Source of the DNA: an uncultured Saprospiraceae bacterium
GTDB lineage: Bacteria > Bacteroidota > Bacteroidia > Chitinophagales > Saprospiraceae
Reading direction: 5' to 3'
NCBI GenBank assembly: GCA_937961455.1
Contig: CALGNN010000033.1
Coordinates: forward strand, 1-64,000
DNA: 64,000 bases
Within the stretch, counting starts at the first letter, position 1. Every line of letters begins with the position of its first letter. The translations under genes and the position numbers were made by a program. Below the pieces are notes generated by a model. It worked only from the letters and a program-made list of their open reading frames with translations. It was not told the origin of the DNA and ran no database searches. Shown here piece by piece: positions 11,972-42,846 of the stretch.

Positions 11972-14900
11972 CTATTTTAGCATTAACATTTTCCTCGTTG
12001 CTGTATAATCTTCAGACTGTAGGGTATAATATAATAACCCACCAGCTGATATTTCTTCTAGTTTAACAGTGATCGTATTAAAGCCTTTCTCAAATTCACC
12101 ACGCTGTGTATGAATTAGCTTACCATTTACATCATAAATGCTAAGTGTCGTCATACTCGTTTTAGGTAAATTAAATCCAATATTCGTCTGAGTATTGAAA
12201 GGATTTGGCTCATTCTGATAAAGTGCAAATTCAGTATCTGCATCTTTAACACCAGTTTCAGACCAAAGCGTTGCTATCGCATATCGATTAAGATCGTTGT
12301 CATAAACTTCTGCTTGGATCAACTCTGAGTTGAATTCAACTGCATCACTCAAATTTCCATTTGCTCGCGCATTGAAAACCATAGTGAATAATTCGTCCTC
12401 ATTTTCTAAGAATGGGTTTATCACATCATTCCAAGAAAGACTTACCAATCCTGCTTCAGAAACTTTTCCTAAGAAATCTTTGCTGATCTCAATACTGTTA
12501 GACTTAATATCTACAAATTCTAATACTTCTGTATCCAATTGCATAGTCATTTGCATTCCGACAAGCTTTTCGATATCCTTGGCACTTACTTGCATACTTA
12601 CAAGATCACCATTCTTAAATGCTTTATCAGTCATAACAAACTGCACCTCATTATCTAAACCTCTATCTTCCAATGCAACAAGGCTTGTAGGATCAACAGA
12701 GTTATTCACATCTCCAATTTTAATTCCAATAAAGTCAATATTCATATCACCTTCTAAACCAGAGATCTGGTATGTCTCAGGGAATGGAATACTGAATGGA
12801 TCATTCGGATTTGAGAATATGTAGTCAGCATCAACGAATCTCCATGAATCATTGTGCGGCAATTCTGTTTGGATTTGAAGAATCAATTTTCTCAGTTCAA
12901 TGATATCAATAGCTGAAACAGACTCTGAGCTGTTTGCATCTGCTGCAATCATCTTATAAGGAGAATCAAGGAACTCAATTCCAAGCAAGTGCTTCTGAAT
13001 TCTTACTAAGTCAAGTGTTGTTACACCATTCAAATAGTTGATGTCTTTTTCAGGACTCAATTCATAATTACCACCTATCGGCATGCCTGGGAAATAATAC
13101 ATTCCCGCTGCATTGGTGTTATATGGATTTGAGCTACTTCCCATCAAATGCATAGAAACTTCTTCTACATTTTCTGACATTTCAGTCCTTACATTACCAC
13201 TGATCTCAAGACCAATTGGTGCAGGAGGACAAAGACTATTGTTGTCTGTTATTACTATGTATGTTGTACAATACTCTTGATTTCCACTTGGATCAGTGAC
13301 CCAAACTTCAACGGTAGTTGGAGGATTAACCCCTACATCAGCACAAGTGAACTCCATATTCGTATCAGCCGTATCTGCTGAGAATGAGAAGATCAAAGGC
13401 ATGTTTGGATCACAAACATGATAACTTCCTGCATCGAAATCTGAAGCCCAGATTACAAGTGTTCCTGCAGAGTCAATCACATTATCTCCATCTGTATCAA
13501 ATCCTGGTAGATTTGAAGATAAACCATTATAGCAATAAGGCGTTGGAGCTGTACCACTTGTTACTTGGAATATCCTAGAACAAGTTGTTTTGTTTCCACA
13601 GCCATCCTCTACCGTAAATGTCATTCTGTGTGTACCAATCGGATAGGTAGCTGAAGCGTTGATAGAATTTCCTATGTTTGCTCCACCTCCATCAATTGAT
13701 CCATCATTGAATGCATCAAGCGTATAAGTCCAGTAAAGTTCGTTGTCATCTGTACATAAATCTGTACCCTCAGCTATCAAAGTCACTGGCGCTCCTCCAC
13801 AATCAACATCAAAGGATTGAACAATGAGACTATCACAATCTGAAGTGATTTCAGGTCCTTCACCATCAATTACTTTTATTATTTGAACATCAGAGAAGTA
13901 TCCATTTGTGGAGTCCATTGGTCCTGCTGGATCAAATTTACACCAATCGATAATCTGCCAAGTTCTTAAAATCTTGAAGCATGCTCCATCTACGAAATTG
14001 AATACAAGATCTTCATTACTCATAGCAATTAAAGAACACTCATCATCATTAAATACTATTGGAATTCCTGTACTCAATGGGTCTGTTCCTGATCCACAAC
14101 CTGTGAGATCTACATCATCTGGCCATTGAATCGTCGTTGTAGAAAGTGGCGTGTAATCAATTATTGTAATAATTTGAGAACAAGTCACTGCATTACCACT
14201 GAAATCAACTGAACCATCTGTTGCAGTAAATATTCTTTCTATGTAACCAATTCCGCAACTGTTTACATTAACATTGGAAGATTCTTCCCAAGCTACTGAA
14301 CAATTACCCTGTGCTAATCCATCTATACCCACACTTACAGAACCTGTAGTGTTAGGATTTCCTGGATCGTCGATATAAATTTGCTCTCTCAACGATTGAT
14401 CATTCACCAGTGTTCCGAACACTGAAAGATCATTTGAATCAAAATCAAACTCACAACTAACTGTGATATCTGTTGGGCAAGTAAATTGCGATGGAAGTTT
14501 GTCTTGTACTTCAACCTGAACCATACATTCATTGTAATTGCCCGATAAGTCAGTAACTCTTAATACTACTAATACAGTATTTCCAACATCTGCACAGCAG
14601 AAGTCTACATAATCTCTATAGGTAGGAATGGTGTCAGTAGGATCACATACCAATGGATCCATTCTCCTTACTTCAATTTTATCTAAGCCACATTCGTCAT
14701 AACTACCATCATCAAAAGTACTGGCATAAACTCTTGCTTGACCTCCAAAAGTTAGAGAAACAATACTATGTGTTTCGCATACTGGGATTGGAGGATTATT
14801 ATCGTTTACCGTAATAAATACAGAACAAGATGTTGCATTTAAACAAGCATCATAAGCTGTATATATAATCTCATTGACTCCAACTGGTAGGTTCACTGGA

Positions 14901-15997
14901 ATACCACCATTACCGGAGTGAAATCCTCCTGGGTATTCTGTTGTAACCGTAACTGGGTCAGAACAATTATCTAAGTAAGATATTGAAGGAAGGTTTACCA
15001 TAGAATTACATGCCAATCCATCTGTAGATACGGTAAAATCAAGTGGGCATGCTAGCGCAGGTCCAGTTTGATCTAATATCTCAATCAATTGGGTGTGTAA
15101 AAATTGTACCTCACCTTGGCAATGCCATTCTGATACCGTCCAAACTCTCAATACTTTAGATACACAACCAAGTGTTGCTAAAGTTTGATCTTGAAATGTA
15201 ACTGTAATATTACATGCATCATATGGTGCAGGGTAAATTGGAATGCCATTTAAAGTAGGAACACCTGTAATATCGGTATCAGGCACGCCATCATTATTTA
15301 GATCCCAATCTCCATCACAAAGCAAGTTATTACCAAGTGCTAGTGTAAGAGAATCTGGAAAATCTAATGTCGTAAAATCAATTCTTTGTAGTAATAATGT
15401 ATCTCTACAAGTATCAGAAACATTACCACTAGCATCAACTGCAACGTATTTTCTGATCAATTGCTTTAAATACAACGGATCACAAAGTGGTGTTTCTTCT
15501 TCACCAACAAAGATTACTGATGGATTTGGATCACAGTTATCTATGGCTGTAGGTCCAGTTATTACAATTGGATCTGTGCACATTACTGTATCATTGATAC
15601 AAACAATCAGTGGTGGTAATTTATCTTCTACTGTTAGGTTACTCCAACAAGAGTTACCTGAAACAATATCAGTTACCATTACTACGAGAGTCGTACCTGC
15701 GTATGACCCATCTACAAAAGGAGAAGTTGGAATTGGAACATCGTTTTCCAATACCATTACTTCAAATACACCTCCAGGACATTGTGAAACGTCTGCAACC
15801 ATTGCTACGGTCACTTCTGCATTACAATTCATGTCCAGGGAAAGCTGCACATCCTGACACCCTAAGGCGCATTGTGCGTTTAGTTGTTGTGGCTGAAATA
15901 TTGCTATTAAAGCTACAAACATTACTGCTTGGGAAAGTTTAAAAAATGTTTTTGCTAACCCACGCTCTAACGAAAATTTAGTATTCGTCTTCTTCAT
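11972..15997 (-). CDS. Giant T9SS surface protein: HYR/Ig modules, dockerin-like, cohesin-like, type A sorting domain
   Basis: A 1341-residue exported protein. A signal peptide covers about 1-42 (ends 'L-N-A-Q'). Residues about 43-920 are Cys-rich HYR and related Ig-like modules (recurring 'D-x-x-P-P', 'C-P-x-D-F-T-V' and 'D-x-C-G/L-N-x-T-x-C'). A CNA-B-like domain follows (about 925-984), then a dockerin-like pair: 'N-G-V-T-T-L-D-L-V-R-I-Q-K-H-L-L-G' (near 986) and 'D-A-N-S-S-E-S-V-S-A-I-D-I-I-E-L-R-K-L' (near 1020-1040). Next is a cohesin-like beta domain (about 1110-1240) and a type A sorting domain starting 'L-Y-Q-N-E-P-N-P-F' (about 1256-1341). It should cross the outer membrane by T9SS and be attached to the cell surface. 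It has its own promoter (16241-16286) and terminator. No enzyme domain is seen, so a structural or adhesive role is inferred. Confidence 0.85.
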   Translation of the reverse strand: MKKTNTKFSLERGLAKTFFKLSQAVMFVALIAIFQPQQLNAQCALGCQDVQLSLDMNCNAEVTVAMVADVSQCPGGVFEVMVLENDVPIPTSPFVDGSYAGTTLVVMVTDIVSGNSCWSNLTVEDKLPPLIVCINDTVMCTDPIVITGPTAIDNCDPNPSVIFVGEEETPLCDPLYLKQLIRKYVAVDASGNVSDTCRDTLLLQRIDFTTLDFPDSLTLALGNNLLCDGDWDLNNDGVPDTDITGVPTLNGIPIYPAPYDACNITVTFQDQTLATLGCVSKVLRVWTVSEWHCQGEVQFLHTQLIEILDQTGPALACPLDFTVSTDGLACNSMVNLPSISYLDNCSDPVTVTTEYPGGFHSGNGGIPVNLPVGVNEIIYTAYDACLNATSCSVFITVNDNNPPIPVCETHSIVSLTFGGQARVYASTFDDGSYDECGLDKIEVRRMDPLVCDPTDTIPTYRDYVDFCCADVGNTVLVVLRVTDLSGNYNECMVQVEVQDKLPSQFTCPTDITVSCEFDFDSNDLSVFGTLVNDQSLREQIYIDDPGNPNTTGSVSVGIDGLAQGNCSVAWEESSNVNVNSCGIGYIERIFTATDGSVDFSGNAVTCSQIITIIDYTPLSTTTIQWPDDVDLTGCGSGTDPLSTGIPIVFNDDECSLIAMSNEDLVFNFVDGACFKILRTWQIIDWCKFDPAGPMDSTNGYFSDVQIIKVIDGEGPEITSDCDSLIVQSFDVDCGGAPVTLIAEGTDLCTDDNELYWTYTLDAFNDGSIDGGGANIGNSINASATYPIGTHRMTFTVEDGCGNKTTCSRIFQVTSGTAPTPYCYNGLSSNLPGFDTDGDNVIDSAGTLVIWASDFDAGSYHVCDPNMPLIFSFSADTADTNMEFTCADVGVNPPTTVEVWVTDPSGNQEYCTTYIVITDNNSLCPPAPIGLEISGNVRTEMSENVEEVSMHLMGSSSNPYNTNAAGMYYFPGMPIGGNYELSPEKDINYLNGVTTLDLVRIQKHLLGIEFLDSPYKMIAADANSSESVSAIDIIELRKLILQIQTELPHNDSWRFVDADYIFSNPNDPFSIPFPETYQISGLEGDMNIDFIGIKIGDVNNSVDPTSLVALEDRGLDNEVQFVMTDKAFKNGDLVSMQVSAKDIEKLVGMQMTMQLDTEVLEFVDIKSNSIEISKDFLGKVSEAGLVSLSWNDVINPFLENEDELFTMVFNARANGNLSDAVEFNSELIQAEVYDNDLNRYAIATLWSETGVKDADTEFALYQNEPNPFNTQTNIGFNLPKTSMTTLSIYDVNGKLIHTQRGEFEKGFNTITVKLEEISAGGLLYYTLQSEDYTATRKMLMLK

Positions 15998-16240
15998 GAG
16001 ACCCTATTTTTAGTGATTTAAAATTTAGTTTTCTTCGACACAGGATGAATAAAATCCATTTCTGCATCTGCTAAATCAATCATATCATTATAGATATGAT
16101 ATCATCATTAAGGTCTATTATCGAACTAGGATACTCTGCCCAGGTTTATTGGCAGAATAGATAGGTTTTTCTCATTTTGAGAGTTAAAATACATATGACC
16201 AAATTGTTCTATTTGTTGATCATTCATTATAACTCATTTA

Positions 16241-16286
16241 CAAATATAGAATTTTTATAATATGTTTTTCTACCCAATAAGAGGTA
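16241..16286 (-). promoter_or_regulatory. Promoter with TACC-N8-GGTA palindrome (1341-aa gene)
   Basis: On the minus strand the 16-mer TACCTCTTATTGGGTA (16271-16286) is followed after 22 bp by TATATTTG (16241-16248), a Bacteroidota -7 box. Site centre to box centre is 34 bp, so the site would lie near -41, the usual position of an activator that touches RNA polymerase. The 7-2-7 heptamer form (TACCTCT-TA-TTGGGTA) is that of NarL-type regulator sites. The same layout occurs at 33504-33549 and 42097-42141. Confidence 0.7.
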
Positions 16287-16335
16287 TTTTTTATATTACA
16301 GATATATGTAATGTATAATTCCTTGATTATCAATT

Positions 16336-16371
16336 AAAAATCCCTTACCGAATTTGATTCGATAAGGGATT
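16336..16371 (-). terminator. Intrinsic terminator of the 2365-aa gene
   Basis: On the minus strand AATCCCTTATCGAA, loop TCAAA, TTCGGTAAGGGATT with one mismatch is followed by a short T-run (A-run 16336-16340 on the plus strand). It lies 28 bp beyond the stop codon. Confidence 0.8.
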
Positions 16372-16398
16372 AACCACATTATATTAATTTGCTAATAT

Positions 16399-23496: not shown

Positions 23497-23534
23497 AGGA
23501 CAAACTAATGTCCTTTGGCATTAGCATTCACTAA

Positions 23535-24002
23535 TCAACTATTATCATTCGTTCGGTTTGTGGAATGCCACCAATAATTGCTTATTGGCATTATACTTTT
23601 CTCGTTTAAATTCTTATTTAATTTATATTGAAATGGGTATTTGATACCAATGACCTTGGCATCACCCAAAAAGGCGTTACGGATCCCCTTGGAGTCAGGA
23701 CTCCACATGGAATTATTTCTATTACTCAAGTTGTCTCTCTTAGTACCAGTCGTCAATGAGAACTGGATATTATCAAATAAATTTGTATAACTAAGATAGC
23801 TGGTAGGGTAAAATGTTGGAGTTGGTAACTCCGGATGTTGGATTGTATCCGAAAGTACTAAATATGTAACGAATTTAGTGCTTATGTTGCTCCCTTTAAC
23901 TTTTAAATTGTTGTCACTAATATTTGCCTTTGTGACATGCACAAAGCCTAATAAAAGGAAAACAAGGGTGATACAAATTTCTAGCATTTTACGCAAATTC
24001 AT
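23535..24002 (-). CDS. Small secreted protein of unknown function
   Basis: A 155-residue protein that I do not recognise. It has a signal peptide (about 1-26, a hydrophobic core 'I-C-I-T-L-V-F-L-L-L-G-F-V'). The mature part is polar, rich in Asn, Ser and Tyr, with no cysteine, and ends 'N-R-T-N-D-N-S'. No sorting domain is present, so it may stay periplasmic or be exported by another route. It lies 45 bp after the 784-aa giant gene and 38 bp before the 2365-aa giant gene, on the same strand, so co-transcription is likely. A role as an accessory subunit or folding aid for its giant neighbours is only a guess. It could also be a decayed gene. Confidence 0.55.
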   Translation of the reverse strand: MNLRKMLEICITLVFLLLGFVHVTKANISDNNLKVKGSNISTKFVTYLVLSDTIQHPELPTPTFYPTSYLSYTNLFDNIQFSLTTGTKRDNLSNRNNSMWSPDSKGIRNAFLGDAKVIGIKYPFQYKLNKNLNEKSIMPISNYWWHSTNRTNDNS

Positions 24003-24047
24003 GTTATTAATAAATTACTGTTGTGATTAGGATGGGTCCCTTTCCAA

Positions 24048-26402
24048 TTAAGGATTAACTATTGTTAACTTTTTTGTCTGTTTGTCTGTAGGCGATTTTA
24101 TACTATACAAGAACATTCCGTGTCCAAATATTTCTGCTCTATTCAAGCTAATTTGTTGGATTCCTGCATCATAATAATCTGATGTTGAAATTATTTTCTT
24201 ACCACTTAGATCTATTAATTCAAATACAATTTCTTGCGCTACTGGATTATAAAAACTAATCATTGTTTGGTCAGAAACTGGATTTGGTGAATTTTGATAA
24301 AGTGTGAGTTTTTGATCTTTTATACGTTCGAGTAATTGAACATTAAATTCTTCAGAATCATTTAAAGCATTATTTACTTGTTCTGAATCCAAGCTCAAAT
24401 TCAATACACTGCTTTTATTATTTTTTCTTTTGAATAAGAGTTGCAGTACTTCATCTTGAACTTCATTCTCAGAATACCACATTAAGCTATTTTGATTAAA
24501 GTCATCTTGGAATAATTGACCTTTAATAGCCGTCATACTTACCAAGCTGAAGTCCTCTTGCTGATATGATAATGCCAATTGCATGGCAGTAATTTCATCA
24601 CTATTCGAAAGACTCACAAATACAAGCTCTCCTTGATATTCCGCAGAATATTCAATTGTAGTCAAGGATCTATCTTCTAATAAAATTTCTAGAGGATTGG
24701 GATTAAAGGAATGATTAATATCTCCAATTTTAATCGCGGTAAAATCTATCTCTTCTCCACCAGCATCAAGGGCTACTATTTCAAAAGACCCATCAACATT
24801 GCTTGCAATGTCAAACTCTGGATCTTGCAGAATTGAATTTTCAATTATTCTCCATGATGTATTTGAAGCTAATTGGAAGTCATTACTTAATAACATTTGT
24901 CTTAGCAACTGTAGATCAACTTCATCAATAAGCCCATTTTTGTCTATATCTGCTGCAACTAAATTGGCTGGATCAGTAATGGCTTCAATATTATATAAAT
25001 GCTTTACTAACTGAACAAAATCTCTTGTACTTACTCCTTCAAGCCAAGGTCCAGTTTTCTCAGACATAATCATGTACTTCTCTCCCGCTTCTAAATCTGC
25101 AAAGTAATATGCTCCGTTTTCATCAGTCATATCAGATGTTGACTGATCAACAAGGCTTACTGATGCACCTTCCACCATTATTCCATCAGGATTAGAAATG
25201 GTTCCAGATAATGGGGAAGGCATCGGAGGACACATATCCATATTATCTTGAACATTTACGTAAGTAACACAAAAATTACTATTACCACTTTCATCTGTGA
25301 CTGTCACAGTTACATCTACTGTCCCTAAATTTTCACATGTTACAACTGGAGGATTTACTGTTATTATTAATTTATCTTGAGGTGTGCAGTTGTCATAACT
25401 CCCTGCATCAAACATATTTCCAGTCAAGTTAAGGTAGTAACCATCGCTCATAAGAGATAAGGGCACAGCTATTCCATGATAGCAATAAGGTGTTGGTTTT
25501 ACACTGTCCACAACAGTCACTGAACTCGTGCATGTTGCAAAATTTCCACAACCATCTTCTACTCTGAAGGTAATTATCGTTGTACCTGTTGGATAATATC
25601 CACTTGCATCAGCACCATTCCCTAAAGCATACGGAGAATCATTTGTTATTGTTAAATCAGAAGAACAAACACCTTCTGCAATTGGCACTGGCACTTGTGT
25701 TAAAGAGCTAGAACAATCTGCCGCTGAAGAAACGGTAATATCCGAGCCGCAAGTTATTACTGGTGGATCATTAGATAAAACTTTGATTACTTGGACATTC
25801 GTATAAGATCCACCTGAATAAGGATTATTTGGATCATATTCACACCAGTCTAAAACGGTCCATGTTCTTAATATTTTTTGACATGCACCTGGGACTATTG
25901 TAAATACTTGATCAGTGTAACCTACAGCAATTTGCGTACAATCACCACTTGAGGTCACAACTGGTTTATTATATGGATATGATAGGTCTGAAGGCTCTAG
26001 TGCATCTGTACATGAAGCATCGAGAAGGTCATCAGGCCAATCAATATTTGTTGCGTTTACGCTTCCTACAACTGTGATAACTTGCGAGCAGGTATATATA
26101 TTTCCGCCATAATCTGCGGCACTCCAAGTTCTTATAATATGTCCAACATTACAACTATTCAAATTGTAGTGCACATAGGGTGGATCTGCAGGAACTGGGT
26201 TGCCATATCCAAAGACATAGGCATTGCCATAAATGGAAAGATCCCATAATTCTTCCTCACATCCTACGGTAACATCTGGAGGACACTCTATATGGAATAA
26301 GGACTCACTTGCATTAAGTTCTAAAATAGAACATAGCAATATAAGGGATAGTACTGACTTACACATTTTTAAAATACTCATAATAATAGCTGTTATATGC
26401 AT
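24048..26402 (-). CDS. T9SS surface protein: HYR modules, canonical dockerin-like pair, cohesin-like, type A sorting domain
   Basis: A 784-residue exported protein, the shortest of the five with this plan. A signal peptide occupies about 1-33; starts at Met1, Met8 or Met13 are all possible. Residues about 38-390 hold HYR-type modules ('C-P-P-D-V-T-V-G-C', 'D-G-C-G-N-F-A-T-C'). A CNA-B-like domain (about 400-450) precedes the dockerin-like pair: 'G-V-S-T-R-D-F-V-Q-L-V-K-H-L-Y' (near 452) and 'D-I-D-K-N-G-L-I-D-E-V-D-L-Q-L-L' (near 482). The second loop has the full D-x-D-x-N-G calcium pattern, unlike its paralogues. A cohesin-like domain (about 555-690) and the sorting domain ('L-Y-Q-N-S-P-N-P', from about 700) follow. 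It is more divergent than the others. A TATATTTG box lies about 100 bp upstream. Confidence 0.85.
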   Translation of the reverse strand: MHITAIIMSILKMCKSVLSLILLCSILELNASESLFHIECPPDVTVGCEEELWDLSIYGNAYVFGYGNPVPADPPYVHYNLNSCNVGHIIRTWSAADYGGNIYTCSQVITVVGSVNATNIDWPDDLLDASCTDALEPSDLSYPYNKPVVTSSGDCTQIAVGYTDQVFTIVPGACQKILRTWTVLDWCEYDPNNPYSGGSYTNVQVIKVLSNDPPVITCGSDITVSSAADCSSSLTQVPVPIAEGVCSSDLTITNDSPYALGNGADASGYYPTGTTIITFRVEDGCGNFATCTSSVTVVDSVKPTPYCYHGIAVPLSLMSDGYYLNLTGNMFDAGSYDNCTPQDKLIITVNPPVVTCENLGTVDVTVTVTDESGNSNFCVTYVNVQDNMDMCPPMPSPLSGTISNPDGIMVEGASVSLVDQSTSDMTDENGAYYFADLEAGEKYMIMSEKTGPWLEGVSTRDFVQLVKHLYNIEAITDPANLVAADIDKNGLIDEVDLQLLRQMLLSNDFQLASNTSWRIIENSILQDPEFDIASNVDGSFEIVALDAGGEEIDFTAIKIGDINHSFNPNPLEILLEDRSLTTIEYSAEYQGELVFVSLSNSDEITAMQLALSYQQEDFSLVSMTAIKGQLFQDDFNQNSLMWYSENEVQDEVLQLLFKRKNNKSSVLNLSLDSEQVNNALNDSEEFNVQLLERIKDQKLTLYQNSPNPVSDQTMISFYNPVAQEIVFELIDLSGKKIISTSDYYDAGIQQISLNRAEIFGHGMFLYSIKSPTDKQTKKLTIVNP

Positions 26403-32801: not shown

Positions 32802-32841
32802 TCTAAAGTATTTTTTTGTTATCGAAATGTTCGTGAGATAA

Positions 32842-33294
32842 TTAAATAGTTAACAAAGCTGTAGCGTCTCGCACTAATTGCTTGACCTCCACTGCTTCTG
32901 GATCAGGAATACCTGAAACAGTAGTAGCTGCTGTCTGCCATCCATTTGGATTTGGAGAAGCAAGTGAAAAGATATTTGGTGCTAAGCCCATGGCTGTAGC
33001 AACATCACCTGATTCACTAATTAACTCTGCAAGATTTTTAAAGAAATGAAGTCGTCTATTGACAGACTCATAAGTAGGTGTACCCTGACTTAAGTTAGGA
33101 AGATTAGCTGCTATGGCATTTATTTCGTTTACACAAATGCTTATAGCCTCATCTTTCTGAACATAATTCTGGGCAGATGCGCTTTGAAAGCTCAAAGCAA
33201 CAAAAGAAAAGACCAAGGTCAAAGAAAAAAGACTTCCCTTGACGATCCTTCCTAAATCTTTCATATGAAAGAATGTAGAATTCGTCATTTTCAT
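32842..33294 (-). CDS. Small secreted helical protein upstream of the 2045-aa giant
   Basis: A 150-residue protein that I do not recognise. It has a signal peptide (about 1-41, core 'G-S-L-F-S-L-T-L-V-F-S-F-V-A-L-S-F', end 'A-S-A-Q'); Met11 is an alternative start. The mature part of about 108 residues looks helical, with one cysteine in 'A-I-S-I-C-V-N-E-I' and no sorting domain. It is the first gene after the promoter at 33504-33549 and lies 40 bp before the 2045-aa gene, so the pair is very likely one transcript. A periplasmic partner or subunit of the giant protein is plausible, but no known family was identified. Confidence 0.65.
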   Translation of the reverse strand: MKMTNSTFFHMKDLGRIVKGSLFSLTLVFSFVALSFQSASAQNYVQKDEAISICVNEINAIAANLPNLSQGTPTYESVNRRLHFFKNLAELISESGDVATAMGLAPNIFSLASPNPNGWQTAATTVSGIPDPEAVEVKQLVRDATALLTI

Positions 33295-33757
33295 GAGATT
33301 GAGTTTTGATTATTAATATCTAGTTAAAAAAATTCGTCTTTATAAAGCTTTGCCTTTGCAAACAGCCTCTTGAAATTTCAGGACAACCTGGGGGAGGTAA
33401 ATCAGTCGATAAAGTTTTTAAGCTACTTCAACTTCTTCAAAATCCTAAAATTGCTATTTCAAAAATTATAAAACATTGCGTACTTCTTCCATACACAACT
33501 TCACAAAGATACACTAAGGTGTAAATGTTTATATACCCACTTAGAGGTAATTTTCATATTATGATTAATCCTTATATCTAATAGAATATGAATCTTGTCT
33601 TTGCACAATTAATTATATCAAAGTATTCTTATTCAAAAAATGCACCAAGTTTTAAAAATAATATTTAATTCGCTGAAAATCAGTCTATTAAAATTTAAAA
33701 ATAAATTTCAATCTGACTTTTAAGTAAATATTTGAGATTATTCTTTTGAAGATTTAC
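33295..33757 (-). other. Promoter and long leader region of the small-protein/2045-aa operon
   Basis: A 463-bp gap between the PorP/SprF gene and the operon below it. It contains the palindrome promoter (33504-33549) and a leader of about 205 nt. The leader carries two short motifs also seen in the leader of the 1308-aa gene: CTGGGGGAG (33388-33396) and AATTCGTCT (33331-33339), plus-strand sequence. The part from about 33560 to 33757 is very AT-rich with no gene seen. Confidence 0.6.
33504..33549 (-). promoter_or_regulatory. Promoter with TACC-N8-GGTA palindrome (small-protein/2045-aa operon)
   Basis: Minus strand: TACCTCTAAGTGGGTA (33534-33549), 22 bp, then TATCTTTG (33504-33511). Site centre to -7 box centre is 34 bp, identical to the promoter of the 1341-aa gene and within 1 bp of that at 42097-42141. 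A NarL-type 7-2-7 reading is TACCTCT-AA-GTGGGTA. Confidence 0.7.
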
Positions 33758-34681
33758 TTACATATCTTCATTCATTACAGCAGATTTATCTTTTGATAAA
33801 TTTACTCCAATACTAATTTCGTGTGATCCGTTATTATATTGTTGGAAATCTTGGAAAGAAACATCATAAGAATAATAAATTCTTACATGATTTACCCTTG
33901 TACCTAGAAGGAATCCGAATCTACTTCCAGCACCTAATGAATAGCTTACACCTCCAATCAATTGATCGTCCAAAAATCTTAAAAGTACATTTAAGTCTGT
34001 TCTAAAATCTACTCGGCGAATATTCTGGAGTAGAATAGAAGGCTCAACTATAAAATTATAATTTGATACTAAGTGTCTATATCCAACATTAAGCCCGAAT
34101 CCAATATTATTATTTTCTTCTTCTGCTGTAGGAATGTCTTTCAATCTATTCCGTACGGCGTTAGGCACCATTAATCCTGCATAGATTGTTCCATTATCTG
34201 CATATACTGCAGCCCCAGCATCAAATAAAAATACACCATCAACTGCTGCGATGATTAATGGATCTCCTTCATTATAGAACGAAGATGAAGTGACGTCACT
34301 ATCCAAACTTAACTGTTGAATCCCTGTAGAAATTCCCAATCCTACGTCAAAATCATTTACTTGAAATTGATAAGCATAATTAAGTTGGCCTTGAAATCTT
34401 CTGATACTCGCAACATTATCTGATGTTAGTTGTAATCCTAAACCTACCCTATCTCGTACTCGTCCATCAATACTAAGGTGGAAAGATTTCGGAGCTCCAG
34501 GGAATGCTGCCCATTTATTTCTATGGCTAAATATCACTTTACCATCTTGATCAAAACCAGACGCAGCTGGATTAATAAGAATAGGCTGTAAGTGATAGTG
34601 TGTAAATACTGCAGGCTCTTGAGCCTTGATATCTATTGTAAGGAGTAAAAAGAAAACGCTGAATATTAATATATTTTTCAT
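33758..34681 (-). CDS. PorP/SprF-family type IX secretion system membrane protein
   Basis: A 307-residue outer-membrane barrel protein. A signal peptide covers about 1-20 ('I-D-I-K-A-Q'). It begins with the family opening 'P-A-V-F-T-H-Y-H-L-Q-P-I-L-I-N-P-A-A-S-G' and continues 'F-S-H-R-N-K-W-A-A-F-P-G-A-P-K-S', both hallmarks of PorP/SprF proteins. In Flavobacterium, SprF is needed to export the adhesin SprB encoded beside it. Here the gene follows, 36 bp downstream, a 1019-aa protein with SprB repeats and a type B sorting domain. I infer that it exports or anchors that neighbour. Confidence 0.92.
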   Translation of the reverse strand: MKNILIFSVFFLLLTIDIKAQEPAVFTHYHLQPILINPAASGFDQDGKVIFSHRNKWAAFPGAPKSFHLSIDGRVRDRVGLGLQLTSDNVASIRRFQGQLNYAYQFQVNDFDVGLGISTGIQQLSLDSDVTSSSFYNEGDPLIIAAVDGVFLFDAGAAVYADNGTIYAGLMVPNAVRNRLKDIPTAEEENNNIGFGLNVGYRHLVSNYNFIVEPSILLQNIRRVDFRTDLNVLLRFLDDQLIGGVSYSLGAGSRFGFLLGTRVNHVRIYYSYDVSFQDFQQYNNGSHEISIGVNLSKDKSAVMNEDM

Positions 34682-34717
34682 TTGTCTAATTGTCTTTGAT
34701 TGTAAATAGGTCTTAGC

Positions 34718-37700
34718 TTATTTTAAACTTCTTATGATTGCAACAGAACCTCGATGAATGTCTGTTGTTCCATTAGGAAGTCTAACCCTCAATACCCAGT
34801 GATAACCTCCTTCTAATAAATTATTTCCTCCAGTATCCACTCCATTCCAACTATTATCATAGTTATCTTCTTCATAAACCAATTGTCCCCAACGATTGTA
34901 GATTTCAATGGTATTATCAAAATCTCTAGCACATTGGATTTGCAAGAACTCATTTAAATTATCACCATTAGGTGTAATGGCAGTTCTTGAATCAAAGCAC
35001 TCTCTTGGGTTTAACTGATCGCATACATATACTTGTGTCACAAAAACACACCCATTTGCATCGGTAACAGTTAAAGCATAATCTCCAGGAGCAACTCCTG
35101 AAATACTATTAGTTGCTGATCCTGTAGACCAATTATATGAATATGGATCTGATCCTCCAGTAACTGACACTGAAACTGATCCATTTGTATCAGTTGGTCC
35201 AGTTGCACAGTTCTCCTGATCTGGGCTCACTCTAATTTGATCCGGTTCGAATATGGAGAAAGCAGGATCTTCATAAGTAAGTCCTGTTGCCTCAGTGACT
35301 GTTAAACCATAAGTTCCTGCACATAAATTTGATATGGTTTGAGTGGTTTCTCCAGTAGACCAGGTGAAAGTATAAGGTGCAATTCCATTCAATGGCATGG
35401 CAGTAGCAGAACCGTCACATTCTCCCCTACAAGTAACATCAAAATTTCCAAAATCCATTTTTATAATTTCAACTTGAAATGTTAAAGGAGTCACCATAGC
35501 TGTATGGGTAAATACACATTGAGGCATTGAATTATCAGTAACAGAAACGGTATAGTTTCCTCCTGGGATGTTTATTAAATCCTCTGTCGTAGCTCCATTC
35601 GACCATAGATAACTATAGTTTCCTGATCCTCCAGTGACAGTTATATCGATAGCACCATCATTTCCGGCCGTTGTTTCATCCGTAACTACTGAAGTAATGG
35701 TTAAGCCCGTAGCTGGCTCACTAACAACATACGTTGCTGTAAAAACTTCGCCGTTATTATCAGTAAGTGTCACAGAGTAAGAACCTGCAAATAAACCTGT
35801 AAGATCTTCAGTTGTAGCCCCATTACTCCATGAAAATGAAATTGGATCTGCGCAACCATTGACGGTAAGATTTATGGCTCCAGTAGCCTGACCAAAACAT
35901 TCAACATTGGTTATAATCTCTGATGCATTACACGATCCACCGATAGAATAAGGTCCAAATTCTTGAATACAGCCTGTATTAGAATCAGTAATAGTAACTG
36001 AATAAGATCCTGCACATTGATTAATAATGTTTTGCGTAGATTGACCATTTGACCATAGATAAGTAAAACTACCTGAGCCTCCAGTCACTGTTAAATTAAT
36101 TCCACCATCACATCCATTTACGTCATTAATAATTTGAGGCGTTACGGTCAAGCCAGTAGCACCTGGAAGTGTGTAAGTTTGTTGTGTCGTAGCGTTTGTT
36201 GCATCTGTCAAAGTAACAGTGTATGTTCCAGCAGGAACATTTAATAAATCTTCATTTGTTGTTCCATTACTCCAAGACCAAGTATAAGGCTCTGAGCCAC
36301 CACAAGGTTCTACAAATATATTTCCATTGCCTCCAACACAATCAGGCGCATCTAAATCTTCTAGTTCAATGGATAAAGAACCTCCAGCTCCACCGCAACA
36401 ATCAATAGTGATGGATCCATTATCTAAAACTGGACTAACTAATCCAACAAGATCAGAAAATTCCATAGCTAAAGGTGTACTTGAAAAGTTGATATCTTGA
36501 ACAGAGCCGCAACCCTCAATTACTTCAAAACATAGTTTATATATTATTTGATTATCTGCAGCGTTGGTCCCTGTCAGATTTGGGTCTGTCCATACTACAG
36601 TTAATTGGCCTGGGTTTACTCCGGGCGCCGAAGGATCACCAAAATTACTAGAAGTAAGACCAGGCAAATTCAATCCATCTACTTGACTAAACATGAGTTT
36701 GGATGGATCCCAATTTACACTATGCTGCATACTAATCATATTGGAGAAACCTAAAACTGAAACATCTGCACAAACTACTTCGCCTGGCATTCCAGTTGCA
36801 TCACCAATTATAATTGAAAGATCGCCACCACTCGATTCTTGGTTGATATTGATTCTTCCTGAAGAACCAGTGAATGGTACAACTTCACCAGCACCATCAT
36901 TTACTTCAATAACAAGTGGGCTGTTTGTGAAATCAAAGGCAGAAGATTGGCCTCCTGCACCGACTAGATCAAAACAAGCTTCAAAAATCACCGTTCCATC
37001 GGGGACTGTAACTCCTGTAGTAGCTGGATCCGTCCATACAAAGGTTATATTTCCATTTGAAACATTGGTTGTGCCAAAGTTTCCTGCGTTCAATCCTGTT
37101 AGATTAAAATTTTGCACTTGGTTAAATTGTACGATAAGGGGACTAAAATTCATGGATAATTGAACAGAAGCAATTTCCTCAAATCCCTGAACACTTACTG
37201 CTACACACTGCGTTGTACCTTGATCTCCACTAACTGTACTTCCTAAAAATGTTAAATTTCCTCCAGTACCTCCACAGTCAACTCCTGGTACCATAAACAT
37301 TCCAGGATTCACGTTGAGACCCACATTAACTTCATTAGCGTCCGCGACTTCAATTGGAGAAGGCGAACCACTTATTGTTATTTCTGATTCTGAACATGGT
37401 GCACCTATGATATCAAATACTATTGAATACATAAGAGAACCATTGGAGAGTGTTGCAGGGTTTAGATTGCTCTCTACCCAAGAAAAGGTAATGTTTCCAT
37501 TATCTACATTACTAGGGTTTGTACCAAAACTACCTGCACTTAAACCAGCAAGGTCAGTCGTTATGTTAGTTATGGAGTTAAAATCGAGTACAGTCTCATC
37601 AAAATTAATCGTGTATTGCGCACTTATTAGATTGGCGAAATTATCAACATTAAAATTGATAGTAATAGTACTACCTGCGTTTCCGGTTCCACCAGATATA

Positions 37701-37777
37701 TTAAATGTTGGTTGGGAAAAAGCATAAGTACAAAATAATAGGGCGACTAAACAGAGTTTGAACTTTTTAAACATCAT
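34718..37777 (-). CDS. Scaffold-like surface protein: three cohesin-like domains, six SprB repeats, type B (CHU_C) sorting domain
   Basis: A 1019-residue exported protein with a signal peptide (about 1-21, ends 'A-F-S-Q'). Three successive cohesin-like domains occupy about 22-160, 165-310 and 315-460. Each has 'L/I-I-S-x-Q-x-S/T-x-N-F/W' early and 'N-G-x-I/L-T-F/V-x-W' later. From about 467 to 920 there are six SprB repeats (pattern 'V-T-G-G-S-G-x-Y-x-Y-x-W-S-N-G-x-x-T'). The C-terminus (about 925-1019) is a gliding-motility-associated CHU_C domain ('I-T-P-N-G-D-N-L-N-E-F' and 'I-Y-N-R-W-G-Q-L-V-Y'), a T9SS type B signal. The next gene encodes PorP/SprF, its usual partner. Because the neighbouring giants carry dockerin-like modules, this looks like a docking scaffold. 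Binding is inferred, not shown. Confidence 0.85.
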   Translation of the reverse strand: MMFKKFKLCLVALLFCTYAFSQPTFNISGGTGNAGSTITINFNVDNFANLISAQYTINFDETVLDFNSITNITTDLAGLSAGSFGTNPSNVDNGNITFSWVESNLNPATLSNGSLMYSIVFDIIGAPCSESEITISGSPSPIEVADANEVNVGLNVNPGMFMVPGVDCGGTGGNLTFLGSTVSGDQGTTQCVAVSVQGFEEIASVQLSMNFSPLIVQFNQVQNFNLTGLNAGNFGTTNVSNGNITFVWTDPATTGVTVPDGTVIFEACFDLVGAGGQSSAFDFTNSPLVIEVNDGAGEVVPFTGSSGRININQESSGGDLSIIIGDATGMPGEVVCADVSVLGFSNMISMQHSVNWDPSKLMFSQVDGLNLPGLTSSNFGDPSAPGVNPGQLTVVWTDPNLTGTNAADNQIIYKLCFEVIEGCGSVQDINFSSTPLAMEFSDLVGLVSPVLDNGSITIDCCGGAGGSLSIELEDLDAPDCVGGNGNIFVEPCGGSEPYTWSWSNGTTNEDLLNVPAGTYTVTLTDATNATTQQTYTLPGATGLTVTPQIINDVNGCDGGINLTVTGGSGSFTYLWSNGQSTQNIINQCAGSYSVTITDSNTGCIQEFGPYSIGGSCNASEIITNVECFGQATGAINLTVNGCADPISFSWSNGATTEDLTGLFAGSYSVTLTDNNGEVFTATYVVSEPATGLTITSVVTDETTAGNDGAIDITVTGGSGNYSYLWSNGATTEDLINIPGGNYTVSVTDNSMPQCVFTHTAMVTPLTFQVEIIKMDFGNFDVTCRGECDGSATAMPLNGIAPYTFTWSTGETTQTISNLCAGTYGLTVTEATGLTYEDPAFSIFEPDQIRVSPDQENCATGPTDTNGSVSVSVTGGSDPYSYNWSTGSATNSISGVAPGDYALTVTDANGCVFVTQVYVCDQLNPRECFDSRTAITPNGDNLNEFLQIQCARDFDNTIEIYNRWGQLVYEEDNYDNSWNGVDTGGNNLLEGGYHWVLRVRLPNGTTDIHRGSVAIIRSLK

Positions 37778-37826
37778 CTGATTTTAAAATTTGGAGAGCA
37801 TTAATAATTTAACTACCGTATAACGA

Positions 37827-37870
37827 CAAAGGTAATATTAGCGTTGCTATTACTTAACATATAAGGGAAT
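37827..37870 (-). promoter_or_regulatory. Candidate promoter of the 1019-aa gene
   Basis: Minus strand TACCTTTG (37827-37834) fits TAnnTTTG and lies about 50 bp before the start codon. About 32 bp upstream is ATTCCCTTATATGTTA (37855-37870), which matches the 1341-aa gene's palindrome at only 9 of 16 positions. It is either a weak version of that site or chance. Confidence 0.45.
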
Positions 37871-37955
37871 TATTTAATATACTCTTTGGAAGGTTTGTAA
37901 GCAGAAACTATTCCAAAAAATCTCAGGTAGGGAATTCGAATACAAATTTAATAAA

Positions 37956-37992
37956 AAAAGCTAATGCTGACGTGCTGTCAACATTAGCTTTT
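37956..37992 (-). terminator. Intrinsic terminator of the 1308-aa gene
   Basis: AAAAGCTAATGCTGA and TCAACATTAGCTTTT form a long stem with one mismatch around a CGTGCTG loop, with A/T runs on both sides. It begins about 25 bp beyond the stop of the 1308-aa gene. Confidence 0.88.
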
Positions 37993-38017
37993 ATTTATTT
38001 AACAATAAGATTAAATC

Positions 38018-41000
38018 TTATTTTAAAATTGTCATTTTTCTAGATGCAGTAAACTCACCAGTTGAAATTTGGTAAACGATAATTCCGCTAAGATTTTCAC
38101 CTAAGTCAGAAACTTTAACGTCTACTTCATTCATTCCTTTTGCAAAATATTGCTCAAGTTCATAAACTTTCATTCCTGCAGTGTTATAGAATTCGATGTT
38201 AACATCGGACTCATTAGGCAAGAAGAAAGAAATGGTAGTTGTTTCTACAAATGGATTAGGACTGTTACCATATAATGCAAAGTCACCATCTACAACTGAA
38301 GTTGTTTCAAGGTTTACTGCATTTATTGTAATGTCATTATTCTCAACTGTATACAATTCTGCTTCCAATGCTGCATCAACTAAGTTTAAGCTAGAAGCTT
38401 TACCAGTTGCATTCATTGTAAATATTACATCTCCTTCACTCAATTGAGTAGCTATTGCATCATTCCATGAGAAGGTCATTAAACCATTATCAATATGGAA
38501 GTTGCTGCTATTCAAGTCAATTAAGTTAGAAGAAAGATCATTGATATTAATTCCAGTTACATCTAAAGCGAACTGTAATCCAATCATATTGTCAAAATCA
38601 TTCGTTGCTACAAAATCAATAGCTCCGTCTCTTTCAACAGTTTTGATTGTCAATGAACTTCTGTCTTCAAGTTCAGTTGAAGTGAACAATTGAGCTGAAC
38701 CATTAAGGTCTCCAACTTTAACACCGTTAAAGTCTAGTGCCATTTGATTCACTACAGTGTATGTATTTAAGTTAATCTCTTCTTGACAAAGACCAGGATA
38801 AGTTTGATTCGCAGGTACACATTCTGGATCAATAAATCTCCATGATTCGTTGTTAGGGAATTCAACATAGATTCCTAAGATCAACTTTCTTAATTCAACA
38901 ATATCAATCGCACTAACTGTTTCAGATAAGTTTATATCAGCAGCTACAAATTTGTCAAACTCTGTAAATGGTGTAATACCAAGTAAGTGTTTTTGAATTG
39001 CAACTAAATCCAGTGTAGAAACTCCGTTCATTGGATCGTGGTTTCTAATAGGATTGATTACGTAATCTGAACTATGGTGTACACCTGCAAAAGAATAGAA
39101 TCCATTTGCATCGGTAGTAGCTTCATAAGCAACACCAGTTAAGTTATCAGTTAAGTATACATCAACTTCAGATATTCCTTGATTAGGACTCATTAATTCA
39201 ATAGTACCACCTACAGTGATGCTATTTGAAATACCATTACATACTGAGTCATTGTCATCAATGATGATGAAAGTCTCACAGTAATCTTGATTTCCGAATT
39301 CATCAGTAACCCAAATCTGAACTAAGTTAGTTCCTATATCATCACATGTAAAAGTCATTCCAGTTTCACTAGTGTTACTAGAGAATGAGAAAAGAAGATC
39401 TTCATGTGCAGTACAGTTATCAAAACTACTTCCTGTTTCAAAGTCATTTGCCCAGATTGTAACTTCTCCTGTTGAAGGCATTACTACTGAAGACAATCCA
39501 CTAATACAAACTGGAGTCGGTTTCTTACAATCAGCAATGGTAAAGTTAGCAGAACAAGTAGTTTCATTACCACATTGATCAGCAACAGTCCATGTTATGA
39601 TGTGATTACCAATTGGGTATGAACCATTTGCATCATTTCCATTACCGAAAATATCGAACACACCATCACTGAATGCATCAATTGCATATGAATATGTAAT
39701 GTTTTCACCATCACAATCATCAACAGCTACGATGTTAAGTCCTTCTGTAACAGCTGCAGAACAATCGTCGTCGTAGCTACAGATAGAAATATCTGTGCAT
39801 CCTTCTGTGATTGTAGGAGCCGTATTATTTTCAACTTTTATTACTTGTACATAAGTCCAAATTCCGCTTGCACCTGGGTTTGATTGATCAAATTGGCACC
39901 AGTCAATTACTGACCATGTTCTTAAGATCTTTGCACAAACACCATCTACATATTGGAAGAAGTCATCTTCATAAGTAACACCAATCAAACTACATGATAC
40001 TTGGTTGAATGAAGGAGCATCGAAACCAGAAGGTAAATCTTCAGGATCTGTTCCGTCCATACACCCTACATCATAGTTACCTGGCCATACGATAGAGTTT
40101 CCGTTAAATGGATTATTATTTGTTACTGTAATTGTTTGAGTGGCTGTCGTTGAACCGTTTCCATCAGCAGCAGTGAATGTTCTGAAGTAAACACCTGTTC
40201 CACAATCATCTGCTGAACCACCTGCAGTAACTGTAATTGTTGGATCACAATTATCAGAAACAGTAGGAGAACCATATACAGAAGAATTAACTACTTCTAG
40301 ATCTGAAAGATCAACATCAACAGTACAGTCGATAGTAATGTTTGGAGGTGCGACAAGTACTGGAGCAATTTTATCTTGAACATCAACTAAAACCATACAG
40401 TCATTATAATGTCCATATAAATCTCCACCTGGCTCCATTCTACTATTGAATACAAAACCAGGACCTGGATCAACGTCAAATACTCTTAAAATAACTTGAA
40501 TATCCCCTAGATCAACATCATCACAACAGAATGTTGCAACGTCATCGTAAGTACCGTAGTTAAAATCACAACTTGTAAAATTCATTCTTCTCACTTTGAA
40601 GAATACATCATTACAATTGTCATAAGAACCATCATCAAATACTGTAGCAGGTACATCAGTTGTACCTGTAGTAGTCAATGAAACAACTGTATGCTCATCA
40701 CAAACTGGAATTGGAGGTGTGTTATCTTCAACTGTAATATCTACTTCGCAAGAAGTTGTATTACCACATCCGTCATCAGCTGTGTAAACAATAGTGTGCG
40801 TTCCAATAGGTAAATTAGATAATAGATATAATCCTGAACCAGGATTAAAAGCTATTGCTGCTCCTGCAACAGAACCAGAAAAGTCTACTGAGTAGGAAGT
40901 TCCTGAAGTTGCACAAACATCATAATATTGTAAAGCAGGTAATAAAAGGTCCGCATTACACTCACTATCAGCTGCATCAACTGTAAAATCAGCTGGACAA

Positions 41001-41944
41001 GTAACAATAGGTCCTGCATCATCTTCAACCTTAATAACCTGAATAAATACTAAAGGATTGGTACCTGAATTTGATGGAATACACCAGTCAAAAACAGTCC
41101 ATGTTCTTAATACCTTATAAGCGCCTCCGCATAAAGGAAGGATTTGATCTTCATAAACGATATTAAGTGAACAAAAACCTGCACCAGTGAAAATAGGCTC
41201 ACCATCAATAGTAGGATATCCAGTTTCTTCAGGATCGGGATAACCATTCCCGTTTGTATCCCAGCTAGTATCGCTACAAGATAGAAATGCTGATTGAAAA
41301 CCATCAGCGTTCAATGGCGGTTCTACGTTTGCAAGATCTGTGCGCTCATAGTATACAACTTGAACACATGGATCAGAAACATTGCCACTTGCATCTTCTG
41401 AAACAAACTGTAAAGTTCTGATAGCTGCCCAAGGGGAGCCACAGTCCTGAACTTCCGTTTCATCACTAAGGATGTAAAGGATTGGATTTGGATCACAATT
41501 ATCCACTAATCCTGGATCAGGAATACCGTTATAATCAGAATTACAAGCAACAGTAATATCACCGTCACAAGTAAAAGTAGGAGCTAGTTTATCTTCAACT
41601 AGCAAATTTCCCCAGCAAGAGTTGTTACCAACATATACGGAAACTGTTAAAAGCATTCCGACATGCGAGCCATCAACTCTATCTCCAATGACATTGCCAT
41701 CAGCATCAGTTATTTCAACCACATAAGGACAAGCTGGATCGTAGTCCTCAATAACCATGTCTGGTGTGATAATCGCTTCGCAGTTTTCATCTAATGACAC
41801 ATTAACCTGTCCATTACAGGCTAGCGGACATTGAGCACTTACGGAACTCATCCCAACAAACATGAACATAACCAAACAAACTAAACTAAAGCTCAGATTT
41901 CCCAGAGCTAGGTAGGATCTTTTCATGAGATATTTATTTAACAA
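38018..41944 (-). CDS. Giant T9SS surface protein: HYR modules, dockerin-like, cohesin-like, type A sorting domain
   Basis: A 1308-residue exported protein. Met7 (41926) is the more likely start, giving a signal peptide that ends 'S-S-V-S-A-Q'. Residues about 40-900 are HYR and related Cys-rich modules; several segments match the 2045-aa paralogue closely ('C-A-K-I-L-R-T-W', 'S-S-V-V-M-P-S-T-G-E-V'). A CNA-B-like domain (about 910-970) leads to the dockerin-like pair ('G-V-S-T-L-D-L-V-A-I-Q-K-H-L-L-G' and 'D-I-N-L-S-E-T-V-S-A-I-D-I-V-E-L-R', about 971-1025). A cohesin-like domain (about 1085-1205) and the sorting domain ('L-Y-G-N-S-P-N-P-F', from about 1220) follow. Its promoter lies beside a response-regulator gene. 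It is closest to the 2045-aa and 1341-aa proteins. Confidence 0.85.
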   Translation of the reverse strand: MLNKYLMKRSYLALGNLSFSLVCLVMFMFVGMSSVSAQCPLACNGQVNVSLDENCEAIITPDMVIEDYDPACPYVVEITDADGNVIGDRVDGSHVGMLLTVSVYVGNNSCWGNLLVEDKLAPTFTCDGDITVACNSDYNGIPDPGLVDNCDPNPILYILSDETEVQDCGSPWAAIRTLQFVSEDASGNVSDPCVQVVYYERTDLANVEPPLNADGFQSAFLSCSDTSWDTNGNGYPDPEETGYPTIDGEPIFTGAGFCSLNIVYEDQILPLCGGAYKVLRTWTVFDWCIPSNSGTNPLVFIQVIKVEDDAGPIVTCPADFTVDAADSECNADLLLPALQYYDVCATSGTSYSVDFSGSVAGAAIAFNPGSGLYLLSNLPIGTHTIVYTADDGCGNTTSCEVDITVEDNTPPIPVCDEHTVVSLTTTGTTDVPATVFDDGSYDNCNDVFFKVRRMNFTSCDFNYGTYDDVATFCCDDVDLGDIQVILRVFDVDPGPGFVFNSRMEPGGDLYGHYNDCMVLVDVQDKIAPVLVAPPNITIDCTVDVDLSDLEVVNSSVYGSPTVSDNCDPTITVTAGGSADDCGTGVYFRTFTAADGNGSTTATQTITVTNNNPFNGNSIVWPGNYDVGCMDGTDPEDLPSGFDAPSFNQVSCSLIGVTYEDDFFQYVDGVCAKILRTWSVIDWCQFDQSNPGASGIWTYVQVIKVENNTAPTITEGCTDISICSYDDDCSAAVTEGLNIVAVDDCDGENITYSYAIDAFSDGVFDIFGNGNDANGSYPIGNHIITWTVADQCGNETTCSANFTIADCKKPTPVCISGLSSVVMPSTGEVTIWANDFETGSSFDNCTAHEDLLFSFSSNTSETGMTFTCDDIGTNLVQIWVTDEFGNQDYCETFIIIDDNDSVCNGISNSITVGGTIELMSPNQGISEVDVYLTDNLTGVAYEATTDANGFYSFAGVHHSSDYVINPIRNHDPMNGVSTLDLVAIQKHLLGITPFTEFDKFVAADINLSETVSAIDIVELRKLILGIYVEFPNNESWRFIDPECVPANQTYPGLCQEEINLNTYTVVNQMALDFNGVKVGDLNGSAQLFTSTELEDRSSLTIKTVERDGAIDFVATNDFDNMIGLQFALDVTGININDLSSNLIDLNSSNFHIDNGLMTFSWNDAIATQLSEGDVIFTMNATGKASSLNLVDAALEAELYTVENNDITINAVNLETTSVVDGDFALYGNSPNPFVETTTISFFLPNESDVNIEFYNTAGMKVYELEQYFAKGMNEVDVKVSDLGENLSGIIVYQISTGEFTASRKMTILK

Positions 41945-42096
41945 TACATTTTATTATAATGAGGAATCCAAAATAAATAAATACCAAAAAAACCAATTTT
42001 GCCACACTCTGGGGGAGAGTAAATTCTGCAAGTTGGAATTATTGAAATTTTATCAATTTTAGACGACCCAATAAATTCGTCTATTTATAATCCTAG

Positions 42097-42141
42097 CAAA
42101 GATAATTGAAATTATAGAATCTATATACCACGAAATGGGTA
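42097..42141 (-). promoter_or_regulatory. Promoter with TACC-N8-GGTA palindrome (1308-aa gene)
   Basis: Minus strand: TACCCATTTCGTGGTA (42126-42141), 21 bp, then TATCTTTG (42097-42104). Centre-to-centre distance is 33 bp. It lies between the stop of the response-regulator gene and the 1308-aa gene, leaving a leader of about 150-165 nt. This is the third promoter in the cluster with this layout. Confidence 0.7.
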
Positions 42142-42186
42142 AATTTAATATATAAGAAATATGTAATATGTAAGTGTCGGAATTAC

Positions 42187-42846
42187 TTAAATGATAGAGT
42201 TATCTAGCGCGAATTTTATCAATCCTGCTGTATTGCTTGCCCCTATTTTTCTCATGATATTTTTACGATGTACACTAACCGTTTGATCGCTGATATAGAG
42301 CTCGTTAGCGATCTGTTTGTTATTCATAGCGCGTGAAATCATGACTAGGATTTCAACCTCTCTTCGAGTCAAATTTTTCTTCTTTAAATAGGGGTCTTCA
42401 AACATGCCATTCATCTGCATGCTCCCATTTTTGTGCTCTTTCTTAGGAAAGATTTTTAATCCTTCATTTAAGTAGCTATTTCCTTTTGAGACTTCTGTAA
42501 TAGCTTTACTCAATTCTGTCCATCCTGACGATTTCAAAACATATCCATATGCTCCCTGCACAAAAGCGGATTTAATAAAATTCGGCAATTGATACATGCT
42601 TACAATAATAACTTTCAAATCAGGAGCCACTTTTATTAGTTCGGGCAGCAGAGATAGTCCGTCTTGTCCTGGAAGATTTAAATCTAATAACAGAATATCA
42701 GGAATGGACTTTTCAATAGCTTTCATTGCATTGAAAGCATCATGAGCCACCCACAACAGTTTTAGTTTGTGATCCTCATTAGATTTAAATAATTGAGATA
42801 ATGCTTCGGTATAAAGTTTATGATCGTCTACTAAAGCGATTTTCAT
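42187..42846 (-). CDS. NarL/FixJ (LuxR-type) response regulator
   Basis: A 219-residue two-domain regulator. The receiver (about 1-120) has Asp7-Asp8, phospho-acceptor Asp55 ('L-L-L-D-L-N-L-P-G'), a Ser in 'V-I-I-V-S-M-Y' and Lys in 'Y-V-L-K-S-S'. The C-terminal LuxR-type helix-turn-helix (about 154-215) reads 'L-T-R-R-E-V-E-I-L' and 'N-K-Q-I-A-N-E-L-Y-I-S-D-Q-T-V-S-V-H-R-K-N-I'. No histidine kinase is encoded nearby, so its partner is elsewhere. It starts 31 bp after the asparaginase-type gene ends and may share its transcript. The family binds inverted TAC-type heptamers, and three promoters in the adjacent cluster carry such a site, one of them 46 bp past this gene's stop. It is therefore the prime candidate regulator of the giant surface proteins. 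Confidence 0.93.
   Translation of the reverse strand: MKIALVDDHKLYTEALSQLFKSNEDHKLKLLWVAHDAFNAMKAIEKSIPDILLLDLNLPGQDGLSLLPELIKVAPDLKVIIVSMYQLPNFIKSAFVQGAYGYVLKSSGWTELSKAITEVSKGNSYLNEGLKIFPKKEHKNGSMQMNGMFEDPYLKKKNLTRREVEILVMISRAMNNKQIANELYISDQTVSVHRKNIMRKIGASNTAGLIKFALDNSII

Follow-up and report, generated by a model that had tools for sequence, protein, structure and literature searches.

The window analysed here (the whole stretch of DNA under study, 64 kb of a 4.6-Mb genome) encodes five giant secreted proteins and a three-cohesin scaffold, and their dockerins and cohesins are genuine members of those domain families. We consider it quite possible, if somewhat short of probable, that these proteins form a non-cellulosomal cohesin-dockerin assembly, built by the type IX secretion system (T9SS), in which dockerins paired with a cohesin on their own chain are also able to engage cohesins of the scaffold or of a neighbour. 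In such an assembly, the scaffold (P0005) would be exported via its type B sorting signal, retained in the outer membrane by the PorP/SprF protein encoded next to it, and would expose three free cohesins at the end facing outwards, and the giants would be exported by type A signals, each with a dockerin nested in a transthyretin (TTR)/CNA-B-like domain and then a cohesin of its own. In the resting state, the dockerin would most likely sit on that cohesin (self-paired). On the surface, it could exchange onto a scaffold cohesin, thereby tethering the giant to the cell surface, or onto the cohesin of a neighbour, thereby lengthening the array. The surface anchoring of the scaffold is proposed by analogy with characterised type B/PorP pairs; we further infer dockerin-scaffold binding, exchange, calcium dependence and an adhesive or coat function.

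The nearest relatives found for the window were almost all from Saprospiraceae. The genes are located on the minus strand in the order P0006, P0005, the PorP/SprF gene, P0004, P0003, P0002 and P0001, down to position 11972. All six proteins that an earlier note on this DNA had described, the five giants and the three-cohesin P0005, were present, and they lie inside the range that it gave as one assembly (11972-42846); a LuxR-type response regulator (42187-42846) within the same range is a separate gene. P0006 (38018-41944, 1308 amino acids [aa]) has HYR modules and a type A sorting domain. Between it and P0005 lies a strong intrinsic-terminator-like hairpin on the minus strand with 16 pairs and a T-rich tail (37956-37992), which suggests that P0006 and the scaffold are in separate transcription units. 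P0005 (34718-37777, 1019 aa) and the gene for the PorP/SprF-like outer-membrane carrier (33758-34681) likely form one unit, since the latter begins 37 nt after the former. Further along are P0004 (26664-32801, 2045 aa), with HYR modules and a P-proprotein domain, P0003 (24048-26402, 784 aa), P0002 (16399-23496, 2365 aa), with many HYR/HYR_4C modules and a C-terminal dyad of dockerin and cohesin like that of P0001, and P0001 itself (11972-15997, 1341 aa), with HYR modules, the nested TTR/CNA-B-like domain and dockerin, a cohesin and a type A T9SS sorting domain. The type A sorting domains reported earlier for all five giants were recovered, with TIGR04183 above cut-off in P0001, P0003, P0004 and P0006 and at 22.8 versus 23 bits in P0002. 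Two small, secreted-looking open reading frames (ORFs) between the giants (23535-24002 and 32842-33294) had no relatives among the loci compared.

Pfam and NCBIfam searches bore out the description of P0005 as a protein with three cohesins (about 37364-37708, 36890-37267 and 36404-36814), SprB repeats and a type B sorting domain (about 34739-34984; TIGR04131, 37.4 versus 35 bits; CHU_C, 2.8e-20), with PorP/SprF next to it (PorP_SprF, 5.9e-50). A phmmer search of the scaffold against PDB sequences returned nothing useful. When the best scaffold per genus was taken, PorP/SprF was encoded directly downstream in 41/48 cases, and some of the others end at contig ends. According to earlier work, type B proteins are anchored by binding to PorP-like proteins (PMC9143113) and have cognate PorP/SprF shuttles (PMC12618676), and SprF depends on a Cys-Xaa-Cys tail for attachment to the moving gliding track (PMC12635249). 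This tail was absent from the C terminus of the window carrier and from the last 60 residues of 40/40 scaffold-linked carriers. Because it is absent, static anchoring is a better guess than gliding and is probably what the scaffold carriers provide. A role of the scaffold as a gliding-track adhesin was rejected on this ground (0/40 carriers with the tail). Elsewhere, the genome of the window encodes a second cohesin-bearing scaffold-like protein (L001, C27:25043-25918; 706-aa frame; Cohesin, 4.5e-15).

The dockerin of each giant lies in a module that we call X-Doc, a TTR/CNA-B-like domain with an inserted dockerin (P0001, 12674-13207; P0002, 17089-17628; P0003, 24681-25217; P0004, 27360-27899; P0006, 38672-39220; all on the minus strand). 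In a whole-protein scan with Dockerin_1 (PF00404), P0002 scored above cut-off (23.9 versus 22.9 bits) and the four other giants just below; in a search of frames across the whole genome, 4/5 window dockerins were above cut-off, as was the fifth with neighbours counted. Dockerin_1 matched 104/104 aligned family members at E < 0.01. A profile of the dockerin part also matched dockerins of solved structure (8.8e-8 for the best match; 1e-7 to 1e-3 for those from cellulosomes). By fold, Foldseek comparison of X-Doc with dockerin chains gave TMt values of 0.63 to 0.67 at weak E values (0.1 to 0.3); no PDB match below 1e-3 was obtained in the X-Doc fold search, and no dockerin was among the 50 VIA-align matches listed. 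The second dockerin loop has the canonical calcium pattern (D90, N92, S/D94, S/T98 and D101), the first, which lacks the usual position-5 ligand, does not follow the classical pattern, and a further conserved motif, GDVNxS, stands at the C-terminal end.

The order of modules given in the earlier note (HYR, CNA-B-like, dockerin, cohesin, type A sorting domain) held except in one respect, as the dockerin does not follow the CNA-B/TTR-like domain and is instead an insertion within it. A TTR-like fold (e.g., 5aq0) aligned over 77/81 residues onto model residues 1 to 164 (Z 7.3; a Z below 8 is weak if taken alone), and in the model the TTR-like strands flank the dockerin helices (64-74 and 99-109) on both sides. 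The couplings R7-I160, V14-G161, L21-D154 and N47-S149 tie the two TTR halves to each other, and Pfam matches to CarboxypepD_reg/SdrD_B agree with the TTR-like assignment. Since fold match, cross-half couplings and Pfam are concordant, the dockerin is modelled as inserted, with the conserved SWRF...GDVN stretch closing the domain; in P0001 the dockerin core is at about 12854-13045 and the returning strands with the GDVN motif are at about 12692-12853. X-Doc alone was also predicted by AlphaFold to fold (pTM 0.90).

Each X-Doc is followed by a cohesin or cohesin-like region on the same strand (P0001, 12266-12661; P0002, 16681-17076; P0004, 26943-27347; P0006, 38306-38659); that of P0003 (about 24273-24668) is divergent and overlaps the sorting domain at its lower end. 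Cohesin (PF00963) matches were above cut-off for the three stretches of P0005 (8e-21) and for P0001 (4.2e-7), and the other window clients were not recognised on their own in the Pfam Cohesin scan. At E < 0.01, the profile matched 57/104 client modules among the aligned family members. The modelled cohesin (residues 183-314) matched solved cohesins in Foldseek (2e-7) and in VIA-align (Z 12.8; root mean square deviation, 2.4 Å over 120 residues), and client cohesins recognised those of P0005 at an E value of about 4e-4. Profile searches and matches to solved structures thus established that the dockerin-like and cohesin-like modules, noticed earlier in the sequence, are real. The dockerin parts of paralogues were mostly 46 to 66% identical to that of P0001, far above the client cohesins, which are variable (about 19 to 33% identity to the P0001 cohesin).

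In this otherwise variable domain, a few positions were strongly conserved (Q219, 99%; Y302, 95%; E300, 92%; S258, 91%; G217, 90%) and are predicted to lie on one shared sheet face; couplings between G217 and S258, G217 and E300, and S258 and E300 join several of them on neighbouring strands. Q219 and G217 probably correspond to Asp39 and Asn37 in Clostridium thermocellum CipA cohesin 2, which are known contact residues. This layout is as expected of a dockerin-binding sheet and marks a putative binding face, and because these positions are conserved, the client cohesins probably still bind. That both folds are only structural modules, without any cohesin-dockerin contact, would fit the divergent cohesin bodies and the first calcium loop; against this spacer role, which we regard as very unlikely, stand the canonical second loop, the rank of Q219, S258, E300 and Y302 among the most conserved positions and the confident AlphaFold packing described below.

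We assessed the distribution of scaffold and dyad in 60 Saprospiraceae genera, 58 of them at a completeness of at least 90% and a contamination of at most 5%. The dyad was found in 53/60 genera, commonly in 8 to 38 copies, versus one to a few scaffold proteins, and the cohesin-only scaffold in 51/60. Both were present in 51 genera, the dyad only in 2 (one weak copy each), the scaffold only in none and neither in 7 (Fisher P = 9.3e-8, a value that ignores phylogeny and overstates independence); multicopy dyads without a scaffold were not seen among these genera. In the neighbourhood of the best scaffold per genus (48 genera), a dyad giant was encoded within 10 kb in 28/48, on the same strand every time, where about 2.6/48 were expected from dyad density (rough binomial chance, 3e-23). 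No dyad gene lay within the stretch examined for the other 20/48. Cultured relatives with the gene cluster include Portibacter lacus and P. marinus (loci L034 and L047). In 149 Bacteroidia and 392 phylum genomes, scaffold and dyad were rare outside the family, and all scaffold-positive genomes were also dyad positive, including two of other families: G104 has 2 dyads and a 2977-aa scaffold, and G400 has a single 1432-aa frame with a scaffold-type cohesin upstream of a dyad. The tie between scaffold and giants that the earlier note had suggested is thus upheld by co-inheritance and gene neighbourhood, the genomic support on which the reading of the giants as clients of the scaffold would rest. 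Domain identity, the excess of clients over scaffolds, the conserved cohesin face and a dockerin without a cohesin of its own (L159, below) likewise favour it; against it, co-inheritance may stem from shared ancestry, and there are the 20/48 scaffolds without a dyad gene nearby.

Exactly one dockerin followed by one cohesin was found in 187/190 complete dockerin proteins, and the module was 302 to 334 aa long in 104/105 kept segments (one outlier, 374 aa). For the 314-residue dyad, AlphaFold returned a pLDDT of 95.6 and a pTM of 0.91, with a less certain linker (about residues 171-190). As a freely placed 130-residue cohesin would by definition hold pTM near 0.6, we infer that the model asserts a definite packing of dockerin and cohesin within the chain. 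The fixed order, near-constant length, 1:1 count and confident model of the whole dyad fit a permanently self-satisfied unit, that is, an intrachain domain that would act as a stiff stalk ahead of the sorting signal, in which case the scaffold cohesins would bind something else or serve as spacers. We hold this to be a possible but doubtful explanation, as no scaffold was seen in a genome lacking dyad proteins and the genes for the two tend to lie close together. Moreover, in direct-coupling analysis the top coupling between TTR-like domain and dockerin was clear (1.98 versus 0.84 to 1.11 in shuffles), whereas that between dockerin and cohesin was 1.14 versus 0.99 to 1.35 after the cohesin halves were shuffled; dockerin-cohesin couplings of ranks 5 to 15 were slightly over most shuffles and overall not clearly above controls, and thus speak neither for nor against a conserved interface. 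Of the 3/190 exceptions, two have a tail whose length could accommodate a degenerate cohesin and one, a scaffold-locus protein (L159:10400-12787), has X-Doc and no cohesin, so that its dockerin needs another partner.

In-chain packing of the two parts had been named in the earlier note as evidence that would count against its interpretation; such packing was found at model level, and it is not decisive versus domain exchange, as a closed chain and a single site within a domain-swapped fibre would give the same monomer model. The head-to-tail fibres that it proposed, with the dockerin of one giant on the cohesin of the next, were not supported as stated, because each dockerin belongs to a fixed dyad with its own cohesin that is modelled as a rigid in-chain unit. 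Polymerisation of this kind into fibres or a layer might also proceed by runaway domain exchange. Both partners are present on every chain, the cohesin face is conserved, the intrachain and swapped pairs are indistinguishable in the monomer model, and the G400 chain has an extra cohesin upstream of its dyad; yet two partners on one chain meet at high effective local concentration, which together with the confidence of the intrachain model points to the closed form, and fibres of this kind seem unlikely. Overall, the observation in the earlier note was confirmed and its interpretation partly supported. A broader form of the self-paired, exchanging assembly that we prefer, a surface-assembly system of most Saprospiraceae in which self-capped dockerins would uncap outside the cell and swap onto an anchored multicohesin scaffold and onto neighbours to give a non-covalent coat or fibre, is put forward more hesitantly and may well not hold.

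Among sampled clients, 256/269 had N termini matching the HYR-type regions of the window, and six further clients that were scanned contained haem peroxidase, DUF11, GEVED and MopE domains. Animal-type haem peroxidase N termini were found on dyad clients of other genera (L163:11899-14877, 4e-140, which sits in a scaffold locus, and L165:16275-19154, 2e-140), so that the surface system can, judging from these sequences, carry an enzyme. Glycoside hydrolases were detected neither in the six window proteins nor among the other clients examined. On this basis a cellulosome was rejected, and the view of the earlier note that the proteins make a structural or adhesive surface layer stood, in that a non-enzymatic assembly was supported.

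The proposed system resembles the cellulosomes of Clostridia and Ruminococcus in its surface-anchored multicohesin scaffold, its many dockerin clients and the coupling of an Ig/TTR-like domain to the dockerin. In contrast to these, the clients examined lack glycoside hydrolases, secretion is by the T9SS with PorP/SprF anchoring, and the dockerin sits inside the TTR-like domain and is immediately followed by a cohesin on the same client. Among published proposals, the closest is the putative cellulosome-like complex of “Candidatus Stygibacter” (Cloacimonadota), for which a scaffoldin of tandem cohesins ending in a sorting domain and dockerin-bearing secreted proteins were predicted from sequence (PMC8542988); its clients are enzymes and its scaffold has carbohydrate-binding domains, whereas most clients in Saprospiraceae are giants of HYR/Ig modules whose dyad is predicted to pair with itself, and their scaffold combines SprB repeats with a type B signal and a PorP/SprF partner. 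With SprB-SprF of Flavobacterium johnsoniae and PG1035-PorP of Porphyromonas (PMC9143113, PMC12635249), the scaffold shares SprB repeats, a type B domain and an adjoining dedicated carrier gene; it differs from SprB-SprF in that the carriers lack the Cys-Xaa-Cys tail of SprF and in that cohesins make up its outer end. A 2009 survey dealt with non-cellulosomal cohesins and dockerins (FEMS Microbiol Lett 291:1-16, as cited in PMC8542988). In the part of the literature covered, Saprospiraceae dockerins or cohesins received no more than passing mentions in one metagenome paper, and an earlier description elsewhere is possible. If the proposed assembly is true, a cohesin-dockerin system organises the surface of a large, ecologically common family independently of cellulose digestion, which would join the cellulosome and type IX secretion fields and give a testable role to many non-gliding type B sorting proteins with PorP/SprF partners. 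The nested dockerin delivered prepaired with its own cohesin would be a new connector, and prepairing could solve the export of sticky parts without premature assembly.

Two further dockerin-like arrangements were noticed in the genome of the window. An 833-aa frame (L264, C39:17613-17828) has a different dockerin/EF-hand-like pair (DTDGDGRVSVKD ... DTDGDGIVTASD) followed by a cohesin-like domain (by eye) and a sorting domain, the dyad order in an apparently separate subfamily. In the other (L272, C14:18686-18817), a dockerin-like pair is C terminal (GDVDQNGVINNLD ... GDLNADGLVDDLD) and the adjoining frame opens with a cohesin-like stretch (by eye). Elsewhere in the window, a 1160-aa ORF with zero Pfam matches (44876-48358) lies beside a reprolysin-like metalloprotease (48462-52031) with a cadherin-like domain, a P-domain and a type A sorting domain. 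The protein at 8393-9349 contains Peptidase_S74, an endosialidase chaperone domain of a kind often seen in tail fibres, here in a chromosomal setting.
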